DNA of 24,138 nt from positions 1-24,138 of IMG/VR virus record IMGVR_UViG_3300050821_010867; one strand, 5' to 3'. Every line of letters starts with the position of its first letter. Position 1 is the first letter of the stretch. The position numbers and the translations under genes were made by a program. The stretch is from a virus. Below the pieces are notes generated by a model. It was not told the DNA's origin. It saw nothing but the letters and a program-made list of their open reading frames with translations, and searched no databases. Shown piece after piece: positions 8,328 to 23,453 of the stretch.

Positions 8328-9206
8328 CTACTTGACCATAGTCAAGATCCACTTAGATTTAGGTTCACTGGTATACGGGCTTAGATCTACTCCCTGGAGC
8401 TCGGGAACCTTAGAGTAATCAACCGTCCCTTTCCCAAGAGACTTGGTTAACCTAACCCCGGCTCCAAGGGAGCTTTTGTTACCAGCTAGCATAATGAGCG
8501 CCTCGCGCAGCTCCTCCTTCCTCTTAGCCAACGGCTTCAGCTCGGCGTCCTTGGACTTGAGAACTCTATCGATCTCCAGGATCTCCTTAGCGATGAACTC
8601 CCAGTCCATGTCCTTTTCCCGGCAAATGAAGTCCTTTTCAGTCAAAGCCGGGGGCTCGCCCGTCTTCAGGCACTCCCACATCTTCGCCTCTTCAGCAACC
8701 ATTCTTTGGATGTAGTCCGCATCCCTTTCGACCTCGACAATTATCAAATCTTTTGTTACAGTCTCATAGCTCGCATAGAACATGCGTTCAGGTTTTGAAA
8801 CTTCAATAATGTGCTGGGTCTGTGGGAAATAAAACTCTGGTACCTGTCTATTTTTTCTTACCCATTCGTGTGTATCTGGATTTGAGCACTTTATCTCCAC
8901 GGCTGTTTTTCTGCCCTCATCTATACCATCGAGAGTGGCTGTCATGAAATCCAAAGTAGGATGCTCGAAACGCCCCGGCTCCAACTCCACGCCCATCTTC
9001 TTGCAGAAGAGAGCGCGCGCCTCGGGCTCGTAGTCATTGCCCCTCTTCATCGCGTTATTAACAAACGTATCCTCGCCGGAGCGCTTCTTCTCCCACCACT
9101 GGTAGGGAGTAAACGGCGCAAACTTACTCACCCCCATGATGGAGGGAGCATCGCTGCCCCCAATCTTTCTCCAAGCTAGCCACTCTTTTCTTTGTTCCGG
9201 TGTCAT
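8328..9206 (-). CDS. YqaJ-family viral recombinase/exonuclease
   Basis: A 292-residue protein of the YqaJ/lambda-exonuclease (PD-(D/E)XK) type, expected to resect double-stranded DNA ends for single-strand annealing recombination. Visible motifs: G-G-S-D at residues 16-19, G-N-D-Y-E-P-E at ~56-62, catalytic D93 in T-L-D-G, E104-x-K106 in V-E-I-K, and Q129/Q131 in P-Q-T-Q-H. The C-terminal third is helical and charged (residues ~205-250). Its start overlaps the upstream ssDNA-binding-like gene by four bases (ATGA), so the two are co-translated. No RecT/Beta annealing protein is adjacent; the neighbour may supply ssDNA binding instead. Confidence 0.9.
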   Translation of the reverse strand: MTPEQRKEWLAWRKIGGSDAPSIMGVSKFAPFTPYQWWEKKRSGEDTFVNNAMKRGNDYEPEARALFCKKMGVELEPGRFEHPTLDFMTATLDGIDEGRKTAVEIKCSNPDTHEWVRKNRQVPEFYFPQTQHIIEVSKPERMFYASYETVTKDLIIVEVERDADYIQRMVAEEAKMWECLKTGEPPALTEKDFICREKDMDWEFIAKEILEIDRVLKSKDAELKPLAKRKEELREALIMLAGNKSSLGAGVRLTKSLGKGTVDYSKVPELQGVDLSPYTSEPKSKWILTMVK

Positions 9207-9934
9207 GCTATGTTCCTCTTTTTTTCTAGGTTGTCTCGGTATTTTTCAGCGTAGTCACGCACCCGGTCAAAGTCCTTGGCAGGAGTCCGGTAGATGTTAT
9301 CTATCTTCAAATTCTCGCAGATCTTCTTTTCCAATGCTGCGTCCTTCAACGTAATCGCGTCCAGCTCGTCGCACTGCGCTTCTGTCAGGATGCCGGGATC
9401 AAGGACTTCTCCTGTCTCTTCATTAAAGGCCGTTAAATCGGTCCAAGGGTCGCCCCCCTCATACAGAGCCTCTAATCTCACGGGACACGCAGCAATGGCC
9501 TTTAAAACGCGTTCTGATAGAGGTTTGTGAGGCAGAGGGGTAATGGTATACCTGGTGTCCTTACCAGCTCCTTCCTTTTTTACCTTTAAGTCGTACTTGA
9601 GGAAGTCGCCCCAGTCCTCATCGTGACCGAGCGCGGTTAAAGTTTTAATTATACTGTTCTGGGTGATTTCTAATATAAATAACGCTTCACGCGCATAGTC
9701 CCACACATGCAAAGCCCAGAAAGGCTTGATAGGCTTGGACGCATCCACCGGAGCGCTAGGCTTATTGCTGGGCCTAAAACGCATCGGCTTATTGTCTTTC
9801 CAGTCCATCCACCCGGCAATGGGACGCATGACAATGCGGAAACGGTTCTCGCCCTCTTTCATCTGGGACATTTTCCAGTAAGGTTTTTCGATTTTAAGTG
9901 ATTCAAATTCTGATGGTAAAAATTCGTGTTTCAT
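9203..9934 (-). CDS. Putative phage ssDNA-binding protein (OB-fold-like)
   Basis: A 243-residue protein encoded immediately before YqaJ and coupled to it by an ATGA overlap. The N-terminal part (G-E-N-R-F-R-I-V-M-R-P-I-A-G-W, F-W-A-L-H-V-W-D-Y) is a beta-rich section with many aromatic and basic residues, as in gp32-like phage ssDNA-binding proteins. The middle (D-L-K-V-K-K-E-G-x-G-x-D-T-R-Y-T-I-T-P-L) continues the strands, and the C-terminus is an acidic/basic helical tail. AAAGGAAA precedes ATG 9934. The assignment rests on these features and the recombination operon. An annealase or another recombination mediator is the alternative. Confidence 0.65.
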   Translation of the reverse strand: MKHEFLPSEFESLKIEKPYWKMSQMKEGENRFRIVMRPIAGWMDWKDNKPMRFRPSNKPSAPVDASKPIKPFWALHVWDYAREALFILEITQNSIIKTLTALGHDEDWGDFLKYDLKVKKEGAGKDTRYTITPLPHKPLSERVLKAIAACPVRLEALYEGGDPWTDLTAFNEETGEVLDPGILTEAQCDELDAITLKDAALEKKICENLKIDNIYRTPAKDFDRVRDYAEKYRDNLEKKRNIA

Positions 9935-10562: not shown

Positions 10563-10772
10563 ATGCATTTGAAAGAGTACCTAGAATCTAGGGACCTTGC
10601 AGCTTCAGAGTTTGCGAAAATGCTGGGCGTCAGCCAAAATTGCATCTCCAATTACATCCTATACAAGCGCCTCCCTAACTTAGAAATAGGCCGGGCAATA
10701 GAGCTAGCGACGAAGGGAAAGGTAACCATAGACGAAATGATAGAAACTTACAGGAAGTTCCATGGCAGATAA
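10563..10772 (+). CDS. Cro/CI-type helix-turn-helix regulator
   Basis: A 69-residue protein that is nearly all HTH domain. L-A-A-S-E-F-A-K-M-L-G-V-S-Q-N-C-I-S-N-Y-I is the classic recognition unit (residues ~12-32), followed by L-P-N-L-E-I-G-R-A-I-E-L-A. Size and form fit the Cro or YdaS-like small phage regulators. AAGG lies before ATG 10563 and a promoter with an adjoining palindrome stands upstream, so autoregulation is likely. It overlaps the next gene by 11 bases and leads the rightward operon with RusA. Confidence 0.85.
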   Translation: MHLKEYLESRDLAASEFAKMLGVSQNCISNYILYKRLPNLEIGRAIELATKGKVTIDEMIETYRKFHGR

Positions 10773-11040
10773 AGAGGATATATTTTGCGTCTTGAAAAAA
10801 ATGGATGATGCCATAAACGGTATATCCTTATATCTAGATTCTCGATCCCTACTTCCAGAAGCTGAACTGGCAATTCTAATAGCCTGTATAGAAATTTCTT
10901 TGAAAAATGTAGAAAATATAGAGTTCGCCATCGATGATATAGAAAACATACTACAGAGAATCAAAAGAGAATTTCTAAGTGATAGAGATAGAAATAGAAG
11001 CAGACCCAACCCCATGGAGTCCTTCCCGGATACTCCGTAA
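10762..11040 (+). CDS. Hypothetical acidic helical protein
   Basis: A 92-residue protein, mostly helical and acidic (I-E-F-A-I-D-D-I-E-N-I-L-Q-R-I-K-R-E-F), with no membrane segment or motif I recognise. It begins inside the HTH gene (11-base overlap, with AGGAAG upstream) and runs 62 bases into the RusA gene. Translation of its basic tail (R-D-R-N-R-S-R-P) is therefore in the overlap. Probably an early phage protein of the RusA operon. Confidence 0.65.
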   Translation: MADKEDIFCVLKKMDDAINGISLYLDSRSLLPEAELAILIACIEISLKNVENIEFAIDDIENILQRIKREFLSDRDRNRSRPNPMESFPDTP

Positions 11041-11413
11041 CGGCTTCACCTACAACCCCAAGGCTAAACAAAAGTCGTGGACCCAATTAGCCGTCCGCGC
11101 GCTCTACCACGGACAACCCATCCCCGGCTACGTAGTAGTAGACATGCTGTTTCATGAGAAGATCCCCAAAGCCACCCCCAAGAAAACCATCCCCTCCATG
11201 CTCTCCGGCGAAATACGCCCCACACGCTGCGACACCTCCAACCTATGCAAGTTCTACGAAGACTGCATAAAAAATATTTTGTTCCAAGACGATCGTTTTG
11301 TTGTAAAAAATATTTCAGAAAAGGTATACGGGGAAAAAGGCAAGATAACCATTAAGGTTTATGCCCTGGACGAATACAGGCAGATAAATGAGAACTATCC
11401 TCGAGCAAGTTGA
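10979..11413 (+). CDS. RusA-type Holliday junction resolvase
   Basis: A 144-residue protein of the RusA endodeoxyribonuclease family, which cuts four-way DNA junctions as a dimer during phage replication and recombination. The N-terminus has the P-x-P-W-S-x-x-R entry; the catalytic core is R-C-D-T-S-N-L-C-K-F-Y-E-D-C-I-K-N-I-L-F, with acidic residues D85 and D95, then D104/D105 in Q-D-D-R-F-V. Start is GTG 10979, with an AAGAGA-like site upstream; no ATG lies nearby in frame. Acts with the YqaJ operon on the other side of the control region. Confidence 0.9.
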   Translation: MIEIEIEADPTPWSPSRILRNGFTYNPKAKQKSWTQLAVRALYHGQPIPGYVVVDMLFHEKIPKATPKKTIPSMLSGEIRPTRCDTSNLCKFYEDCIKNILFQDDRFVVKNISEKVYGEKGKITIKVYALDEYRQINENYPRAS

Positions 11414-16041: not shown

Positions 16042-16253
16042 TGGTGAGCAAGGAGAAACGCCCCCGGTGTCCAGAGTGTAGGCGCTTTGTCAAGTTTGAG
16101 GAGATCGTGGAGGGATTTGGGTATTACCACCGTAAGAAAGATCGTGGCTATTTTGAAGTTTACAAATGCGCTCATTGTGATATTGTGGTCTTCAAAAAGC
16201 TAGGTGACATTTGCCCGACTCCCTCTCTCCCAAACAGCTTGAATTCATCCTAA
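16041..16253 (+). CDS. Zinc-ribbon protein adjoining TerL
   Basis: A 70-residue basic protein starting at GTG 16041 (overlapping the prior stop by one base; GGAG seven bases upstream). It has C-P-E-C (residues ~9-12) and C-A-H-C (~43-46), a classical two-knuckle zinc ribbon. Its 3' end overlaps TerL by 43 bases. May bind DNA or the terminase; function unknown. Confidence 0.7.
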   Translation: MVSKEKRPRCPECRRFVKFEEIVEGFGYYHRKKDRGYFEVYKCAHCDIVVFKKLGDICPTPSLPNSLNSS

Positions 16254-17497
16254 ACGCCCGGGCAAAGTGGAACCTGGCACACGGCTCTGTGCGCAGTGGC
16301 AAGACTGTGGGGACCCTGTTCGCATTTATGCAGTCGCTGATTGATTGCCCGGATTCGCAGATATGGATGATAGGCAAGACGTCCAAGACGATCTTTGACA
16401 ACGCTATTTCGCTTATCCTTAGTCCTAAGGGTTCCAACGATCCGCTCTCTGTATTTACGCCTAGCTGCACGTGGTCAGAGTACAAACGAGAGCTGCTCTT
16501 CATGGACAAGACGATTGGCACGATTGGCGCTAAGGATGAAGGGTCCATTGGCCTTATACAGGGTAAGACCATGTCACGCGTGTACTGCGACGAAATGACA
16601 TTGTACCCCGAAAGTATTATTGAGATGATCGACACCCGTTTGTCTAATCCCTACTCGATGGGCTTTGCTTCTATGAACCCGTCTTACCCGGCGCATAAGC
16701 TCAAGCAGTGGATAGATTTGGGTGACGCCGGCGACAAGAACTACTTCTCGATGCACTTCACACTAGACGATAACCCCTTCCTTGATGAAGATTACAAACA
16801 GAGGGTCAAGAACAGTGTGAGTGGCTTGTTCTACAAGCGCAACTACCTTGGCCTATGGTGTCTTGCAGAGGGGGCTATCTTTGACTTTTTTGACCGATCT
16901 CTTTATACGCGTGCTCGCGCTCCTGCTTGTGCCGAGTATTTTGTTGCTGGCGTGGATTACGGAACGTCTAACGCTTTTGCTTGTGTGCTTGTGGGAGTAT
17001 CTACTGGGAAGGCTACGCAAACGGGGAAGATGATGTGGGTAGAGGCCGAGTATTACTGGGACTCTTCCAAGACTCATAGGCAAAAGACTAATTCGGAGTA
17101 TGCGGAGGACCTTGAAAAGTTCCTTGAGCCTTATGGCGTGCGTAATATATATATAGATCCCAGCGCTGCTTCTTTTAAGACGGAGCTTAGAAGAAGGGGT
17201 ATGCACACGGTAGACGCCAACAATGACGTTGAGGACGGGATCATGATCATGACGAGCGAGATGAAGCGTGGCGCTCTGCTTGTGATGGACCGATGTACTA
17301 ATCTCATTAAGGAGATAGAGGGCTATGTTTGGGACCGCAAGAAGGGAGAGAGGGGCTGGGACGAGCCTGTTAAGAAAAATGACCATGCCGTTGATGCTTT
17401 GCGCTATGTTATGGCCACTCATAAAGTGGCTACATACAAACCTAAAGCTAAAGATCCTTATATGGAAGTGGAAGCACCAACGCCGGGGTTTAGATGA
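16211..17497 (+). CDS. Terminase large subunit (TerL), ATPase/nuclease
   Basis: A 428-residue packaging motor. Walker A G-S-V-R-S-G-K-T is at residues 25-32, and Walker B V-Y-C-D127-E128 follows. The RNase H-like nuclease domain has D249 (G-V-D-Y-G), D316 (Y-I-D-P-S) and D391/D395 (K-N-D-H-A-V-D-A-L). Length and order are those of a P22/PBSX-type TerL. Start is TTG 16211 (AGGTG upstream); the next in-frame ATG lies after Walker A, so it cannot be the start. The 3' end overlaps the next gene by a few bases. It cuts concatemers and drives DNA through the portal encoded 3.8 kb downstream. Confidence 0.95.
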   Translation: MPDSLSPKQLEFILNARAKWNLAHGSVRSGKTVGTLFAFMQSLIDCPDSQIWMIGKTSKTIFDNAISLILSPKGSNDPLSVFTPSCTWSEYKRELLFMDKTIGTIGAKDEGSIGLIQGKTMSRVYCDEMTLYPESIIEMIDTRLSNPYSMGFASMNPSYPAHKLKQWIDLGDAGDKNYFSMHFTLDDNPFLDEDYKQRVKNSVSGLFYKRNYLGLWCLAEGAIFDFFDRSLYTRARAPACAEYFVAGVDYGTSNAFACVLVGVSTGKATQTGKMMWVEAEYYWDSSKTHRQKTNSEYAEDLEKFLEPYGVRNIYIDPSAASFKTELRRRGMHTVDANNDVEDGIMIMTSEMKRGALLVMDRCTNLIKEIEGYVWDRKKGERGWDEPVKKNDHAVDALRYVMATHKVATYKPKAKDPYMEVEAPTPGFR

Positions 17498-17956: not shown

Positions 17957-18123
17957 TAATCGACTGTGTTCCTGAATGTGATAGATACGCCTATGAGAGG
18001 GTTTGTGAGTGCGGAAAAAAACAGACGTTGCTTACTCAAAGCGGTCCAGGTGAATACGACACAGGGGTTTATTTGTTGTGTACTTGTGGTCAATACGTTG
18101 AATTTATACTTCCGGTGAACTGA
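17953..18123 (+). CDS. Zinc-ribbon mini-protein (56 aa)
   Basis: A 56-residue gene starting at GTG 17953, with AGAGGAGG upstream inside the preceding gene. Cys pairs C-E-C-G (~18-21) and C-T-C-G (~43-46) form a likely zinc ribbon, and an earlier C-V-P-E-C may join. It ends one base into the metallophosphoesterase start (TGATG). Confidence 0.6.
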   Translation: MIIDCVPECDRYAYERVCECGKKQTLLTQSGPGEYDTGVYLLCTCGQYVEFILPVN

Positions 18124-18875
18124 TGATAATTGACTGCATAGCCGACCTCCATGGTCACTATCCCGAATTAGAAGGCGGAGACTTGCTGATTGTGGCTGGT
18201 GACCTGACTGGTAGAGATAGATTCCAGGAATATATTTTCTTCGCAAATTGGCTGCGAGAGCAGGATTACGAGAAGAAAATATTTATAGGGGGTAATAACG
18301 ACAATCTATTGCAAAACACCGACATAAAGGATGACGTTCTCTATGAGTTCGATTATCTATGCGACTCGGGCACAGAATTCGTTTACTGGCAAGAGGAAGA
18401 CTACAATGATCCCCAAAGTAGCGTCTGCATAGATGTGATACTAAAAGTGCAAAAGAAGCTCAAAATCTGGGGTTCTCCGTGGACGCTCACTTTCCCTGGG
18501 ATGAATCCCCATTGCAAAGCGTTTACCGTCGATACGGAGGAAGAGCTGGCTGAAAAATGGGCGCTTATCCCCGATGATGTGGATATACTGGTTACTCATG
18601 GGCCTCCTTTTGGGATACTCGATTTGGTAGACTATGACCAGCACTGTGGCAATTACCACGTAGGAAGCAAATCATTGGCTCATAGAGTCGGTAAAATTGA
18701 TGATGACGGAGACGGTAGGAGGAGACTTCTTATTTTTGGGCACATTCACGAGGGATACGGCGCAGTAAGTGTTAGCAACGTCTTTCACGATAAATGTACA
18801 TGGAAAATGATTAACTGCTCCCACGTCAACGAACACTACGAACCCGTCAATACCCCCATTCGGATCATCCTATGA
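18123..18875 (+). CDS. Calcineurin-like metallophosphoesterase
   Basis: A 250-residue enzyme expected to hydrolyse phosphomono- or diesters with two metal ions. Motifs in order: D8-x-H10 (A-D-L-H), G26-D27 (A-G-D-L), G-N-N-D at 57-60 (the usual His of G-N-H-D is Asn), T-H159-G and G-H207-I-H209. These suggest a class III-like or MPPED-type fold. The changed G-N-N-D could alter the mechanism but the metal ligands remain. It overlaps genes on both sides (1 base and 4 bases). In a phage, candidate substrates include RNA, nucleotide signals or DNA ends; none is shown by sequence. Confidence 0.85.
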   Translation: MIIDCIADLHGHYPELEGGDLLIVAGDLTGRDRFQEYIFFANWLREQDYEKKIFIGGNNDNLLQNTDIKDDVLYEFDYLCDSGTEFVYWQEEDYNDPQSSVCIDVILKVQKKLKIWGSPWTLTFPGMNPHCKAFTVDTEEELAEKWALIPDDVDILVTHGPPFGILDLVDYDQHCGNYHVGSKSLAHRVGKIDDDGDGRRRLLIFGHIHEGYGAVSVSNVFHDKCTWKMINCSHVNEHYEPVNTPIRIIL

Positions 18876-19219
18876 AGAAAAAGACGCCCGTTAAACGCGC
18901 TTCAAAGGGCGGATGTCCTAAAAACATCAAAATGGCCGAGGTGATTGTTTCTCCCATCACCGCCGAGTGCATCATGAAAATGGCCAAGGAGATGGACGAC
19001 TCATTGCCACGTTGGGTTTCGGTAGAGGACGAACGGCCTAGGGCTGGCATTGACATCTTGTTCACCGATGGAAAGCAGATCTATTATGGCTGGCTGGATA
19101 CCTATGATGTAGGAGAGGAACTCTCATTCTTTGCTAGACGAGTGCGTCTACTGGACGATTGTTATCCAGAGGGCGTAACGCATTGGATGCGCCTGCCCCC
19201 GTTGCCTGTTATTGATTAG
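18872..19219 (+). CDS. DUF551-like protein, second copy
   Basis: A 115-residue protein. After a basic N-terminal 45 residues (M-K-K-K-T-P-V-K-R), the C-terminal part has W-V-S-V-E-D-E-R-P and V-T-H-W-M-R-L-P, the two ends of DUF551. It overlaps the metallophosphoesterase by ATGA and the convergent gene by four bases. The other DUF551 copy at 6704-6910 lacks the N-terminal extension. Confidence 0.75.
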   Translation: MKKKTPVKRASKGGCPKNIKMAEVIVSPITAECIMKMAKEMDDSLPRWVSVEDERPRAGIDILFTDGKQIYYGWLDTYDVGEELSFFARRVRLLDDCYPEGVTHWMRLPPLPVID

Positions 19220-19539
19220 TTGCTTTGCTTTTTCTTCCAGTGCTCTACGATCTCAGCAAGCATTTCGCTTATGGTAGTTGCGACGAGCTTTTCGCATTTT
19301 ACCAACTCCTGGGGAAGGTGCTCTCTTATGGAGTAGTCCAGATCTGAGAGCTTAAAACTCTCGCTCTTCAAATCCTGTGATATAGACACATAGGCCAGGG
19401 ACTTTTCCTCAAATGGGATGGTCTCTGTTTGCAAGTAATATCTTACGATGTCGTCTTTTTCGTCGTAAGTTCCGGGACGCCTTTCGTATCTGATCACTTT
19501 GCCGTTTTCTAGTTCTTTGAGCGCTTCTAAAATGTTCAT
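19216..19539 (-). CDS. Hypothetical protein next to ParB-like gene
   Basis: A 107-residue protein (M-N-I-L-E-A-L-K-E-L-E-N-G-K-V-I-R-Y-E) with a strand-rich centre and helical end. Its opening matches a common start of small phage regulators or DUF-type proteins, but I cannot name it. AGGAGG precedes ATG 19539. It lies seven bases after the ParB-like gene and is probably co-transcribed with it. Confidence 0.65.
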   Translation of the reverse strand: MNILEALKELENGKVIRYERRPGTYDEKDDIVRYYLQTETIPFEEKSLAYVSISQDLKSESFKLSDLDYSIREHLPQELVKCEKLVATTISEMLAEIVEHWKKKQSN

Positions 19540-19546
19540 GGGCCTC

Positions 19547-20272
19547 CTATGGGATGGGGTTTTCGTTTCTGTAGTTGTATATTTCCTTCAACAGTTGAAT
19601 GTATTGAGACATCATGGTGCATGGGTGCATTTTCGAGATATTGATTTGCAGCTTGCGCATGAAGGTCTCAAAGTCAAACTCCGGGTTCTCAAACAGAATG
19701 AACAGAGACCTTTTGAAGGTGATTTTGTTGGTGTACGCCTTTGCTTCAAAAGTTTTTAGCTTTATGAACTCTGCTACTTGGCTGTATTGCCACATTTTTT
19801 GTCTGATCTTTTCGTCGGCCTCTAGGAAGTCGAATTGAAGGTGTCCAGCCTTTAGGGTGTTGTTTTTCCTACCCCCCGCTCTCGTAGACATTGATAGAAT
19901 ATTAGCTGCTGTGCAATCGTATTTTTTGGCTAAATCTAGCACACGGATATAGTTTTCGTCACCTCTCGATGCGTAGAACTTAACATAATCATCTGTAGAC
20001 CAGCCCTTTTGCGCTGTGTTAAACAGGATCATATCCTCTATCGTGGAGTCTACGCTTATTTCATAATATACGGGCACTCCTAGTACTTTGGCAGCCTCTA
20101 GGCGGTGTTGGCCATCTATTACCTCCATCTTCTTGTTTACGATCAACGGACGCAGTTCCAGCATGTTGTTGATCTTGATGGAATTGACGATCTTTTTAAG
20201 ATTACCGGGGTCTATATCTCGGTTGCCTTCGGCTTTTTTGAATATGGATAGGTCTTCTGTTTTGATTTTCAC
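19547..20272 (-). CDS. ParB-like (ParB/Srx-fold) protein
   Basis: A 241-residue protein with the ParB N-terminal fold: P-L-I-V-N-K-K-M-E-V-I-D-G-Q-H-R-L-E-A-A-K (residues ~42-62), in which D-G-Q-H-R binds nucleotide in this superfamily. The following helical part (~85-130) includes a possible HTH around K-K-Y-D-C-T-A-A-N-I-L-S. The long C-terminus has no clear motif. ParB-fold proteins serve in partition, nuclease or CTP-switch roles, and in phages as regulators. No ParA is seen nearby. Start ATG 20272 overlaps the upstream IS30-like gene by four bases. Confidence 0.8.
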   Translation of the reverse strand: MKIKTEDLSIFKKAEGNRDIDPGNLKKIVNSIKINNMLELRPLIVNKKMEVIDGQHRLEAAKVLGVPVYYEISVDSTIEDMILFNTAQKGWSTDDYVKFYASRGDENYIRVLDLAKKYDCTAANILSMSTRAGGRKNNTLKAGHLQFDFLEADEKIRQKMWQYSQVAEFIKLKTFEAKAYTNKITFKRSLFILFENPEFDFETFMRKLQINISKMHPCTMMSQYIQLLKEIYNYRNENPIP

Positions 20273-20730
20273 TTTGTTAACTCCTTTATGGTTTCAAATA
20301 ATATCTTAACTTGTTCTTCTAATGAATCGACTCTAGATAGGAGACTCACGCTTCCCGATGTGTTTGTTAAATTTTTAGGGGAAATTCCCGTTATTTTTGA
20401 TACCCTTGTCGCAGAACAGCGGAATTTTTTGGCAATCTCGTATATGGAAATCCCTTGAGATGCGATGTGGATCATTTCTTGTATTTGGTCTTCAGAAAGT
20501 GGTCTCCTATAAAATGCCCCAATCTTTTGTCGCCTCTTTTCTGCCTCTTCTTGAGCATGTTTATGGTCATAACGCCCATTGATCGACCCGACTGAAACTT
20601 CTTTGCTGATTAAGGAAGGCGCTCTCCCTATTTGCAGTGCTATATAGTAATAGGTTTTTCCTTCTCCTAAGAATGCCTCTATTTGGGCTCTTTCTTCTAG
20701 GTTAAGTGGAGTTCTGTGTTTTCTGACCAC
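20269..20730 (-). CDS. IS30-like HTH DNA-binding protein, copy 2
   Basis: A 153-residue protein. N-terminal L-N-L-E-E-R-A-Q-I-E-A-F-L, then I-A-L-Q-I-G-R-A-P-S-L-I-S-K-E-V, is the IS30-transposase HTH (HTH_38). A second HTH follows at ~85-115 (I-Y-E-I-A-K-K-F-R-C-S-A-T-R-V-S-K-I). The C-terminus is a short coiled-coil (V-D-S-L-E-E-Q-V-K-I-L-F). No DDE catalytic core is present, so it is not an active transposase. Paralogous to the gene at 20732; the two lie one base apart. Confidence 0.8.
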   Translation of the reverse strand: MVRKHRTPLNLEERAQIEAFLGEGKTYYYIALQIGRAPSLISKEVSVGSINGRYDHKHAQEEAEKRRQKIGAFYRRPLSEDQIQEMIHIASQGISIYEIAKKFRCSATRVSKITGISPKNLTNTSGSVSLLSRVDSLEEQVKILFETIKELTK

Positions 20731-20731
20731 G

Positions 20732-21175
20732 CTATTTCTCCCTCAGCGCATCGAAAACGATCTTCATTTGCTCTTCTAGGGCCTCTAGTCTTTCCAAAAT
20801 TCCTGGTGAACTACAAGGTTTATGTATTTTATCTAGTCTGGTTGCTTTAAGGAAATTTCTAAGGGTTGCTTTTGCACATTTGATCGTCCGGACAATCTCA
20901 GAAATAGGCGCTTGACGCTCGACCATTTGCTTTATCAACTCAGCTTCTTGAAGATTAAATATTCTAAAACGCATGCGGTGGATAGTTTTCGAAAGTTTAT
21001 CGGCTTCTACAGCGTCATATTTTCCATTTACTGAGTTCCTTTGAATCTCTCTTTGTATGGTCGCATATGCTCTGCACATGATTTTAGAGATTCTAAACCT
21101 GCTGTGTTCCGATTCCAATAATTCTTGGATCTTTATCCTTTCTTCCAGATTCAGCCTTTCTGTTTCTCTCTTCAT
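20732..21175 (-). CDS. IS30-like HTH DNA-binding protein, copy 1
   Basis: A 147-residue protein with the same layout as its neighbour: L-N-L-E-E-R-I-K-I-Q-E-L-L, an HTH ending T-I-Q-R-E-I-Q-R-N, the shared S-V-N-G-K-Y-D motif, a second HTH (I-S-E-I-V-R-T-I-K-C-A-K-A-T-L-R-N-F), and a C-terminal L-E-R-L-E-A-L-E-E-Q-M-K-I-V-F coiled coil. ATG 21175 has AGGAT upstream. A strong leftward promoter and palindrome precede it, so autoregulation is likely. Transposase-derived regulator without the nuclease domain. Confidence 0.8.
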   Translation of the reverse strand: MKRETERLNLEERIKIQELLESEHSRFRISKIMCRAYATIQREIQRNSVNGKYDAVEADKLSKTIHRMRFRIFNLQEAELIKQMVERQAPISEIVRTIKCAKATLRNFLKATRLDKIHKPCSSPGILERLEALEEQMKIVFDALREK

Positions 21176-21178
21176 AAA

Positions 21179-21200
21179 TCCTGAATGTTTTCAATCAGGA
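21179..21200. promoter_or_regulatory. Operator palindrome of the IS30-HTH operon
   Basis: TCCTGAATG (21179-21187) and CAATCAGGA (21192-21200) pair in eight of nine positions around TTTT. It stands right after the -10 box, covering the expected start site and leader of the leftward transcript. Confidence 0.65.
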
Positions 21201-21201
21201 C

Positions 21202-21230
21202 ATTTTAAGATTTCCCCTCTATAGAGTCAA
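21202..21230 (-). promoter_or_regulatory. Leftward promoter of the IS30-HTH/ParB operon
   Basis: Minus-strand TTGACT (21225-21230), 17 bases, TAAAAT (21202-21207): a near-consensus sigma70 promoter. The 10-base palindrome CTCTATAGAG (21217-21226) lies across its -35 and spacer. Confidence 0.75.
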
Positions 21231-21296: not shown

Positions 21297-23453
21297 ATGT
21301 CCTTTTACTATCCCCCTTGGAACAACGCGCTCGAACCCAATCAGGGGAACGTGAGACAGTGGCTAGACAATCTCTACTCCAAATTTCAGCCCATAGAGCA
21401 AGCAAGATGGAACCAATCCAACATAGACACTCTCTTTTACGCAGGTTCTCAGGAATACGTAAACCGATACTTTGGAATCAACCCTACCAGCTCGCAACAG
21501 AAGCTTTACTTCAACATTCTCCAGCAACCCGTAAACATGGTTACTGGCTATCAGAGACAGCACCGTAAGCAGATTCAGTATATTCCCTCCGAGGGGGCCG
21601 ACACACAGACTACAGATCAGTACAACAAACTAATCACACACGTATGTAACGCGGAAGGGATTCATGAACAATTTTCTAGAGCATGTGAGCAGGCTACCGT
21701 TAATGGCATGGTGCTCCTTCAGCCTTATTTGGATTATAGCGGTGATGACCAAGCACAGGGGTCTTTAAAGGTTAAGTTGTGGGAGTACAATTCGTTTCTG
21801 GTTGATCCGTACTTCCGCAATTACGACATGTCGGACGCGCAATTTGTGTGGTGTCAGGAGTACATATCAAAGAAAGAAGCCGAAGATCGCTTCCCCGATA
21901 AGCTCCAAAACATTGCTCCCATGGCAGGGACGCCTCAGCGTTATGGATCTTTCTATTTCCTTCCGGAGAACTACAACATGGCACGCAATGACCTAATGGT
22001 GTTGTCATATGTATGGTATAAGTGGAAGAAAAAAAAGAAAAGGCTCTACTCACGTTCCCGTAATCAGTTCTTCGACTTCTCCGGTGGAGAAGATCAACTA
22101 GAACAAATCCTTTATAACATACCAGACATGGAGCCTGTAGAGGTAGAAGTTCCGTGCTGGAAACTAGCGGTGGTGCTCAATGATCAACTCATGTACCAAG
22201 GAGATAATCCTCTCGGCTTTGACGATTGTCCTTTTATCCCTGTTTTTTGGAATTATGAACCTCATATCAATTATTACGACCTGAGGGTAAGGGGCCTGGT
22301 CCGCACTATGCGCGACTCTAATTGGCTCATGAATCGTAGAATTATTTTGAATCATGATATCAGTGAAGCGACGATCAACGCCGGGTGGAAGCGCAAGGTG
22401 GGCGCTGTCGCCAATGAGGACAACCTTAAGAAAGCTGGCCAGGGCTGGGACGTCATTATCAATGAAGGGTATGAGCTGGTGGACTGCGAGAAGATCCTGC
22501 CTTCCTCCGTTCCCGAATCAGACATGTTGCTCGCCGACCAGATGAAGAACTTGATATTCGCCACATCTGGCGTCGATTTAGAGAACTGGTCGGCGCAGAA
22601 CGACAAGCAAGCGTCATCTCTTACTACGCTGATTAAGCAGGCTGCTAACCTGATGGTGTTGCAAAAGTATTTCGATCAGTGGGACGGCTCTCTGAAGTTG
22701 CTTGGAGACAAGCTCTTGAAGATCGTCCTAAACAACTGGGAAGCCGCGAAAATCGCGCTCATGATCGGCGAAGAGCCGAGCCCGTTCTTTTACTCGAAGA
22801 TCTTCTCCAAGTTCCAAGTGATCGTGGAAGAGGGCGAGCTCACGCCTACGCAGCAGAACACCCAGGCGCAGCAGATGATGGAGATCAACGAGCGTTTCGG
22901 CCGGGAGGTATTCCCACCGTCTATGGTTGTGCCTAAACTCAACATCTCTGGCAAGGCTGAGGCGATCCAATTCTTACAACAACAAGAACAACAAGCACAG
23001 GCAGTACAAAATGAAGCACAAAACATCCAACACGCGTTCGAAGAGGCGAAACTCAAAGAGCTCATGTCGAAAGCGATGGCCAATCTGGCGACAGCTCGCG
23101 AACGGCATGGCCGTGCTGAAGCAGATATCGGCCTCTTTGAGGAAAGACTCAGTGAAATTACTAGGAACCGTGCCCTCGCGACTAGGGACAAAATGGAAGC
23201 GCTGGAGAAGATGGTTGATGTCATTGCCAAGTACGGCGAAGTCGAGACTATGCTCAAGATGGGTCAGATCGAAAGCTTCGACTACCGCCAAGAGCAGAAT
23301 GAGGACCGCGAGAAGCAGGACGCCAAGCAGACAGCGATGAGCAACGACTTTGTTAACCAACTGATGATGCAAAGTCAACAGGGCATGCAACAAGGTGGCC
23401 AGCAACAAGGACAGCAACCTATGCAACAGGGGCAAGAAGCCCAAGGTATGTGA
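21297..23453 (+). CDS. Portal protein (P22-like)
   Basis: A 718-residue protein, close to P22 portal length (725). The N-terminal and central part has the W-N-Q-S-N-I-D-T-L-F-Y-A-G and V-N-M-V-T-G-Y-Q-R-Q-H-R motifs expected of the P22-type portal, which forms the twelve-fold ring at the head vertex and docks TerL. The last ~200 residues are helical and charged, then a Gln-rich tail (G-Q-Q-P-M-Q-Q-G-Q-E). GGAG precedes ATG 21297. It overlaps the next gene by one base (TGATG). TerL lies upstream but is separated by regulatory genes. Confidence 0.92.
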   Translation: MSFYYPPWNNALEPNQGNVRQWLDNLYSKFQPIEQARWNQSNIDTLFYAGSQEYVNRYFGINPTSSQQKLYFNILQQPVNMVTGYQRQHRKQIQYIPSEGADTQTTDQYNKLITHVCNAEGIHEQFSRACEQATVNGMVLLQPYLDYSGDDQAQGSLKVKLWEYNSFLVDPYFRNYDMSDAQFVWCQEYISKKEAEDRFPDKLQNIAPMAGTPQRYGSFYFLPENYNMARNDLMVLSYVWYKWKKKKKRLYSRSRNQFFDFSGGEDQLEQILYNIPDMEPVEVEVPCWKLAVVLNDQLMYQGDNPLGFDDCPFIPVFWNYEPHINYYDLRVRGLVRTMRDSNWLMNRRIILNHDISEATINAGWKRKVGAVANEDNLKKAGQGWDVIINEGYELVDCEKILPSSVPESDMLLADQMKNLIFATSGVDLENWSAQNDKQASSLTTLIKQAANLMVLQKYFDQWDGSLKLLGDKLLKIVLNNWEAAKIALMIGEEPSPFFYSKIFSKFQVIVEEGELTPTQQNTQAQQMMEINERFGREVFPPSMVVPKLNISGKAEAIQFLQQQEQQAQAVQNEAQNIQHAFEEAKLKELMSKAMANLATARERHGRAEADIGLFEERLSEITRNRALATRDKMEALEKMVDVIAKYGEVETMLKMGQIESFDYRQEQNEDREKQDAKQTAMSNDFVNQLMMQSQQGMQQGGQQQGQQPMQQGQEAQGM

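Follow-up and report, generated by a model that had tools for sequence, protein, structure and literature searches.

A recurrent gene pair encoding an HTH protein and a ParB-fold protein in uncultured phages with P22-type portals

In RK2, KorA locks KorB, a ParB-family CTP clamp (PMC11790492). Orphan ParB-fold proteins are also common in phages, where their function is mostly unknown; the accessible part of a 2025 survey documents domain fusions and NTP binding (PMC12704722). According to that part, ParB/Srx-fold proteins bind ATP, CTP, or GTP, with a specificity that is not predictable, and R-to-A changes in the P motif serve as negative controls for NTP binding; a ParB form partnered by an HTH protein is not described there (PMC12704722). 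Members of one such orphan family, phrog_12305, are known in Flavobacterium, Streptococcus, and Enterococcus phages. Those checked in isolates are found without an HTH partner, near SSB, DNA modification, or replication genes.

The locus described here lies in a 24,138-base viral contig of the linear record class, analysed over its whole length (hereafter "the window"). Its nearest isolate-phage terminases are ~37% identical. Between the genes for TerL (16211-17497; phrog_2, 2.9e-46) and a P22-type portal (21297-23453; PF16510, 8.5e-52), both on the plus strand, four genes run on the minus strand in the order HTH-B (20732-21175, 147 aa), HTH-A (20269-20730, 153 aa), a ParB/Srx-fold protein (19547-20272, 241 aa), and a 107-aa gene (19216-19539). 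HTH-B and HTH-A are separated by 1 base, and HTH-A overlaps the ParB-like gene by four bases. The initial annotation had correctly given the coordinates and strand of the first three genes, this overlap, and the location between TerL and portal. It overlooked the 107-aa gene, found in the ORF list, which starts 7 bases past the ParB-like stop and is probably the fourth gene of the operon, outside the conserved pair. This gene has no confident Pfam match and no tblastn match among 80 portal relatives. A Tad2-like identity, guessed from its N-terminus, was rejected, as no Tad2 match was obtained beyond a value of 0.052 for a gene of locus L005. Metallophosphoesterase and DUF551 genes, also overlooked, lie within the same TerL-portal interval. 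A calcineurin-like phosphoesterase gene occurs near the ParB-like gene at three loci (window 18123-18875, L021:7279-8022, and L051:18117-18806) and has matches in 17 of the 80 portal relatives.

HTH_38 is an IS30-type domain that occurs in several kinds of protein. It is matched in both HTH-B and HTH-A (PF13936, 2.2e-10 and 8.8e-12, respectively), two paralogues, as had been reported, which share 25% identity. The motif had been said to occur twice in each: this holds for HTH-A, where the model and a moderate HTH_7 match (4.8e-4) indicate a second HTH, and is weak for HTH-B, where the Pfam value is 0.085. The AlphaFold model of HTH-A (mean pLDDT 91.6) displays two three-helix units followed by a 35-residue C-terminal helix, in agreement with the coiled coil proposed at this end; HTH-B is likewise assigned a C-terminal helix. 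No DDE domain was matched in these proteins of 153 and 147 aa, which hit HTH families only, as anticipated. The core of the family consists of HTH_38 (19 of 20 members by Pfam) and the C-terminal helix, and about 10 of the 20 aligned relatives comprise these two elements alone. The second HTH is present in part of the family (the two window proteins, L004, L017, L058, and L094), and L156/L189 harbor two HTH_38-like segments within one protein. Residues 6-112 of HTH-A match the phrog_4646 transposase (4.1e-7), and its closest PHROG matches also include, at similar E-values, a DNA-binding protein and a T5 D5-like transcription regulator. A weak structural similarity links HTH-A to the bipartite Tc3 domain. 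A transposase origin is plausible but unproven, as is the description of the two genes as a domesticated transposase pair, because HTH_38 is not specific to transposases, the second HTH is patchy, and terminal inverted repeats were not detected.

The ParB-fold assignment of the third gene is upheld by profile, model, and fold comparison. The protein matches phrog_12305 ("ParB-like partition protein") at 5.3e-32 and Pfam ParB_N only at 0.14. Its AlphaFold model has a pLDDT of 92.7, and the Foldseek matches of this model in the PDB at E<=0.001 are ParB, KorB-KorA, and Noc, with a further link to sulfiredoxin. The TM-scores are low, at 0.31-0.47, owing to a different layout of the domains. The ParB/Srx N-domain is followed by helices, and the length of the protein aligns to C-terminally truncated ParB, KorB, and Noc. 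Judging from its length and model, the 241-aa protein seems too short to possess the canonical C-terminal dimerisation domain. Both hallmarks of the ParB/Srx superfamily are present, namely the N-domain fold and the GxxR P motif (Box II), which reads DGQHR at residues 53-57 (codons 20102-20116, minus strand). Across 66 relatives, D53, G54, and Q55 are invariant and H56 and R57 nearly so, the full DGQHR being kept in 63. GmrSD_N is matched by 43 of the 66 relatives at E<=0.01, compared with 7 for ParB_N, and the DGQHR model is matched by 22 at E<=0.1.

Upstream of HTH-B, a near-consensus promoter and an operator had been proposed. A candidate sigma-70-type promoter, TTGACT-17-TAAAAT (21230-21202, minus strand), is indeed present and might drive the operon; it is the best of 8 promoter-like sites, against 7.5 expected by chance. 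The 22-base imperfect inverted repeat TCCTGAATGTTTTCAATCAGGA (21179-21200) is unsupported as an operator: the best upstream inverted repeat is no better than shuffles (p ~0.33), and the TCCTGA..TCAGGA pair is missing from the other 194 loci, its two matches, L001 and L002, being copies of the window. No palindrome or parS-like site is shared among the regions upstream of 21 modules.

The portal search returned 356 relatives and a profile of the ParB-like family 506 viral ones, of which 80 each were fetched; the profile also found 17 relatives in bacterial genomes. The pairs were located via these two proteins and not via HTH queries. Scans of viral_contigs for close relatives with each HTH protein alone gave no matches, because the HTH proteins diverge fast, and their alignment offers no stretch conserved enough for scanning. 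Searches of isolate phages by tblastn with HTH-A and with the portal likewise gave no match. A quick maximum-likelihood tree was built from 66 ParB-like proteins. One of its clades (SH-aLRT 93, not starred) has 20 rows, of which 15 have an HTH gene immediately adjacent to the ParB-like gene and five are HTH-less (L021, L022, L093, L057, and L102). All 15 linked records are uncultured phages with a P22-type portal 25-90% identical to that of the window. The link is established by an HTH profile in 14 of the 15 and, in L115, by a C-terminal helix judged by eye, since its contig starts there. The HTH gene is directly attached in L088-L092, L095, L107, L112, L120, L143, L155, and L156, and it follows the ParB-like gene in L094; some loci are the same contigs under two labels (L091 = L058, L112 = L012). 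Most linked genes overlap by 4 to 29 bases. HTH and ParB-fold genes thus do co-occur elsewhere. What recurs of the trio first noticed is the HTH-ParB pair, and the tandem HTH arrangement is special to the window rather than a conserved trait.

Both genes are under purifying selection, with dN/dS values of 0.27 and 0.06 in L088-L090, where changes are few, and pN/pS values of 0.26-0.41 elsewhere. The clade may have acquired the HTH gene once and lost it later in some members. HTH genes without ParB are also found (L036, L047, and L024; dN/dS 0.20 for L036/L047). Given these solo HTH genes and the solo ParB-like genes above, the coupling is not obligatory. In L020, both genes are damaged, and in L005 a 43-aa ORF (L005:737-868) with an HTH-like start and a ParB-like end is probably a deletion scar of the module. 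The joint damage and the fragment fit an accessory unit that is lost as a whole. Counts of absence carry little weight, because most records are fragments.

The HTH-ParB unit is an accessory two-gene module found at several genomic sites, usually oriented against the capsid genes. The TerL-portal interval is a variable slot, as its length (58 to 4,859 bases) and its genes differ among the 74 loci having both anchors, window included. This slot holds the pair in the window, L004, and L017, a damaged pair beside the portal in L020, and the ParB-like gene alone in L021 and L022. Elsewhere, the linkage is kept between scaffold and coat genes, in the ejection region (with the order swapped), beside an integrase or a serine recombinase, and in an XRE-RusA operon. 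When the pair lies among virion genes, it is antisense to them in 10 of 10 cases, comprising five at TerL/portal (window, L004, L017, and, by the portal side, L020 and L095), four at scaffold/coat (L058, L190, L195, and L196), and one in the ejection region (L194). These ten are not all independent, since L195 and L196 are near relatives. ParB-only copies among virion genes are antisense as well. The pair follows a tyrosine integrase in L185 and L186, and precedes a serine recombinase in L187 and L188. In the latter two (L187:8294-9049 and L188:10012-10752), the recombinase gene overlaps the ParB-like gene by four bases, forming an HTH-ParB-resolvase operon. In L012, an XRE gene and RusA flank the pair; the window homologues of these genes (10563-10772 and 10979-11413; 46% and 44% identity) enclose a different 92-aa ORF, so that phages whose portals are 81% identical keep the unit in two different places. 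A 209-aa ORF of L016 (14980-15609), by eye a serine recombinase, lies antisense in the scaffold-coat interval, the site of the pair in L058. Homing endonuclease neighbours suspected by eye in L051 and L193 were unconfirmed by Pfam. The placement of the unit suggests expression alongside early genes or independently, and not as part of the late operon. The role in late gene regulation initially considered is unlikely for a member of that operon, because the unit is always antisense when it lies among virion genes.

The P motif shows a pattern related to the HTH linkage. The viral scan demanded DGQH and left the arginine free. Each of the 15 HTH-linked members carries DGQHR, and so does every one of the 46 members that fall outside the clade; the arginine is lost in three of the five HTH-less rows, L021 (DGQNT), L022 (DGQHT), and L093 (DGQHC). 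The chance that three losses all fall within 5 of 20 rows is 10/1140 = 0.009, or 6/171 = 0.035 when the sister pair L021/L022 is counted once. The pattern is only a lead, since it was spotted post hoc, HTH-less L057 and L102 retain the arginine, and the losses amount to two events.

ParB-like genes are also found in other settings. Another clade shows a recurring recombination cassette (L144:2321-4379; similar in L105, L108, L131, and L145), in which the ParB-like gene is flanked by the genes for ERF (PF04404, 7.6e-31 in L144) and for a YqaJ-like exonuclease, or adjoins SSB-like genes. Several relatives (L067:622-1116, L045:5570-6094, and L193:10607-11065) encode a second, shorter ParB_N protein (PF02195, 3.2e-10 in L067), whose gene immediately precedes a probable small terminase gene. 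On the minus strand of the window (8328-9934), the gene of a RecE-like exonuclease (phrog_434, 3.4e-48) overlaps a probable SSB gene.

Rather than a plasmid-style partition system, the pair probably constitutes a regulator bound to DNA. Our preferred, tentative reading is that an accessory HTH adaptor and a ParB-fold NTP switch operate on DNA, most likely as a KorA/KorB-like silencer. It is favoured because the most constant fact is the coupling of an HTH regulator to a ParB-type switch, with no other conserved gene in the unit. The persistence of this linkage at different sites, the antisense placement, purifying selection on both genes, the GxxR pattern, and the KorB-KorA fold match speak for it. 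The HTH protein would use its C-terminal helix to dimerise or form larger oligomers, and would bind sites on the phage DNA, where it would recruit or lock the co-translated ParB-fold protein. The latter would bind a nucleotide via its GxxR motif and would then spread on or clamp the DNA, thereby silencing promoters. Such a moron-like unit would be expressed early or from its own promoter, apart from the late genes. The duplicated HTH of the window would probably provide two DNA specificities or a hetero-oligomer. Superinfection control, one of the roles raised initially, is possible, as is a role in regulating genes. The solo HTH and ParB-like genes, the lack of a conserved operator or palindrome, and the low TM-scores count against a silencer. 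It is rather improbable, yet worth stating, that the pair represents a split ParB, with the NTP switch and an HTH-like middle on one protein, and oligomerisation and specific DNA binding on the co-translated HTH_38 coiled-coil protein.

Other explanations start from the ParB/Srx fold itself. ParB/Srx domains of Osa, GmrS, and ParB-methylase are reported as DNases or NTPases, and phage ParB domains have been proposed to act against rival elements (PMC5512222). The pair might accordingly be a conflict system, in which the ParB/Srx protein nicks or degrades rival, superinfecting, or host DNA, or degrades NTPs, while the HTH protein directs it to its target or holds it in check. The prevalence of GmrSD_N and DGQHR matches over ParB_N matches among the relatives, and an accessory antisense placement suiting a moron, agree with this idea. 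It stays doubtful, as no nuclease motif was identified, PADLOC gave no match, and the best PDB fold matches are partition and regulator ParBs. An accessory role in recombination or replication, the ParB-fold protein aiding annealing and exonuclease or site-specific recombination at a site to which the HTH protein brings it, is unlikely. The ERF-YqaJ and SSB-side cassette of the other clade is its strongest hint, joined by the single strand DNA binding protein gene adjoining the gene in the lillamy phage, by L008, where the ParB-like gene directly follows RecE, and by the integrase and serine recombinase neighbours within the HTH clade itself. In the window and most close relatives, however, the pair is isolated within the virion genes and distant from RecE and SSB, and phage early operons group such genes anyway.

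The partition or plasmid-like maintenance first envisaged is very improbable. The ParB fold, the HTH partner, and a serine resolvase in two relatives speak for it, but 26 related records, many of them partial, contain no AAA_31 ParA, the ATPase type to which the search was confined, in line with the original remark that ParA is missing. Moreover, integrases are few, no plasmid sign is seen, plasmids gave only two partial matches, and no conserved centromere-like site precedes the modules. Least probable of all is a mobile element that moves from site to site within phage genomes, its ends being bound by the HTH protein. The many insertion sites, the IS30-type HTH_38, and the resemblance of HTH-A to Tc3 would suit it. 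Yet in 16 modules no terminal inverted repeats rise above shuffles, virion slots devoid of the unit show no clean target-site boundary (flanks 64-84% alike), no transposase or nuclease domain was found, and homologous exchange at variable slots is enough to account for the moves.

If the split ParB arrangement were true, a phage could retarget a single NTP clamp by duplicating or swapping its adaptor, as the two adaptors of the window and the two HTH_38 of L189 would illustrate, and the unit would be a portable silencing module moving among genome slots. An adaptor-switch pair with a tree, solo variants, and natural GxxR losses is a tractable system for a ParB-type switch without ParA. Should the pair silence phage genes or block rivals, KorA/KorB-like control would extend to phages.

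Each of the known systems shares part of this architecture. HTH-A resembles the N-terminal domain of IS30-family transposases, with HTH_38, a second HTH, and the phrog_4646 match. HTH-A and HTH-B differ from these enzymes by a C-terminal helix in place of the DDE domain and by the lack of bounding terminal inverted repeats (16 modules). The ParB-like protein recalls the GmrS/DGQHR/SerK/SbnI branch of the ParB/Srx superfamily by its D-G-x-H/Q-R pocket motif and by weak profile matches, below curated cut-offs where shown, and departs from it in having neither an HNH domain nor a kinase context. To phrog_12305 and the orphan phage ParB-like proteins (PMC12704722) it is linked by a full-length profile match and the same DGQHR. 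The phage pair is unrelated to KorA-KorB at the family level in sequence, has no known operators and no ParA (IncC) partner, and its ParB-like protein seems, from length and model, to be devoid of the C-terminal dimerisation domain that KorB possesses. The two pairs nevertheless share the same design, a small HTH regulator and a ParB-family clamp from one element (PMC11790492), and the KorB-KorA complex (8qa9) is among the best Foldseek matches of the ParB-like protein.
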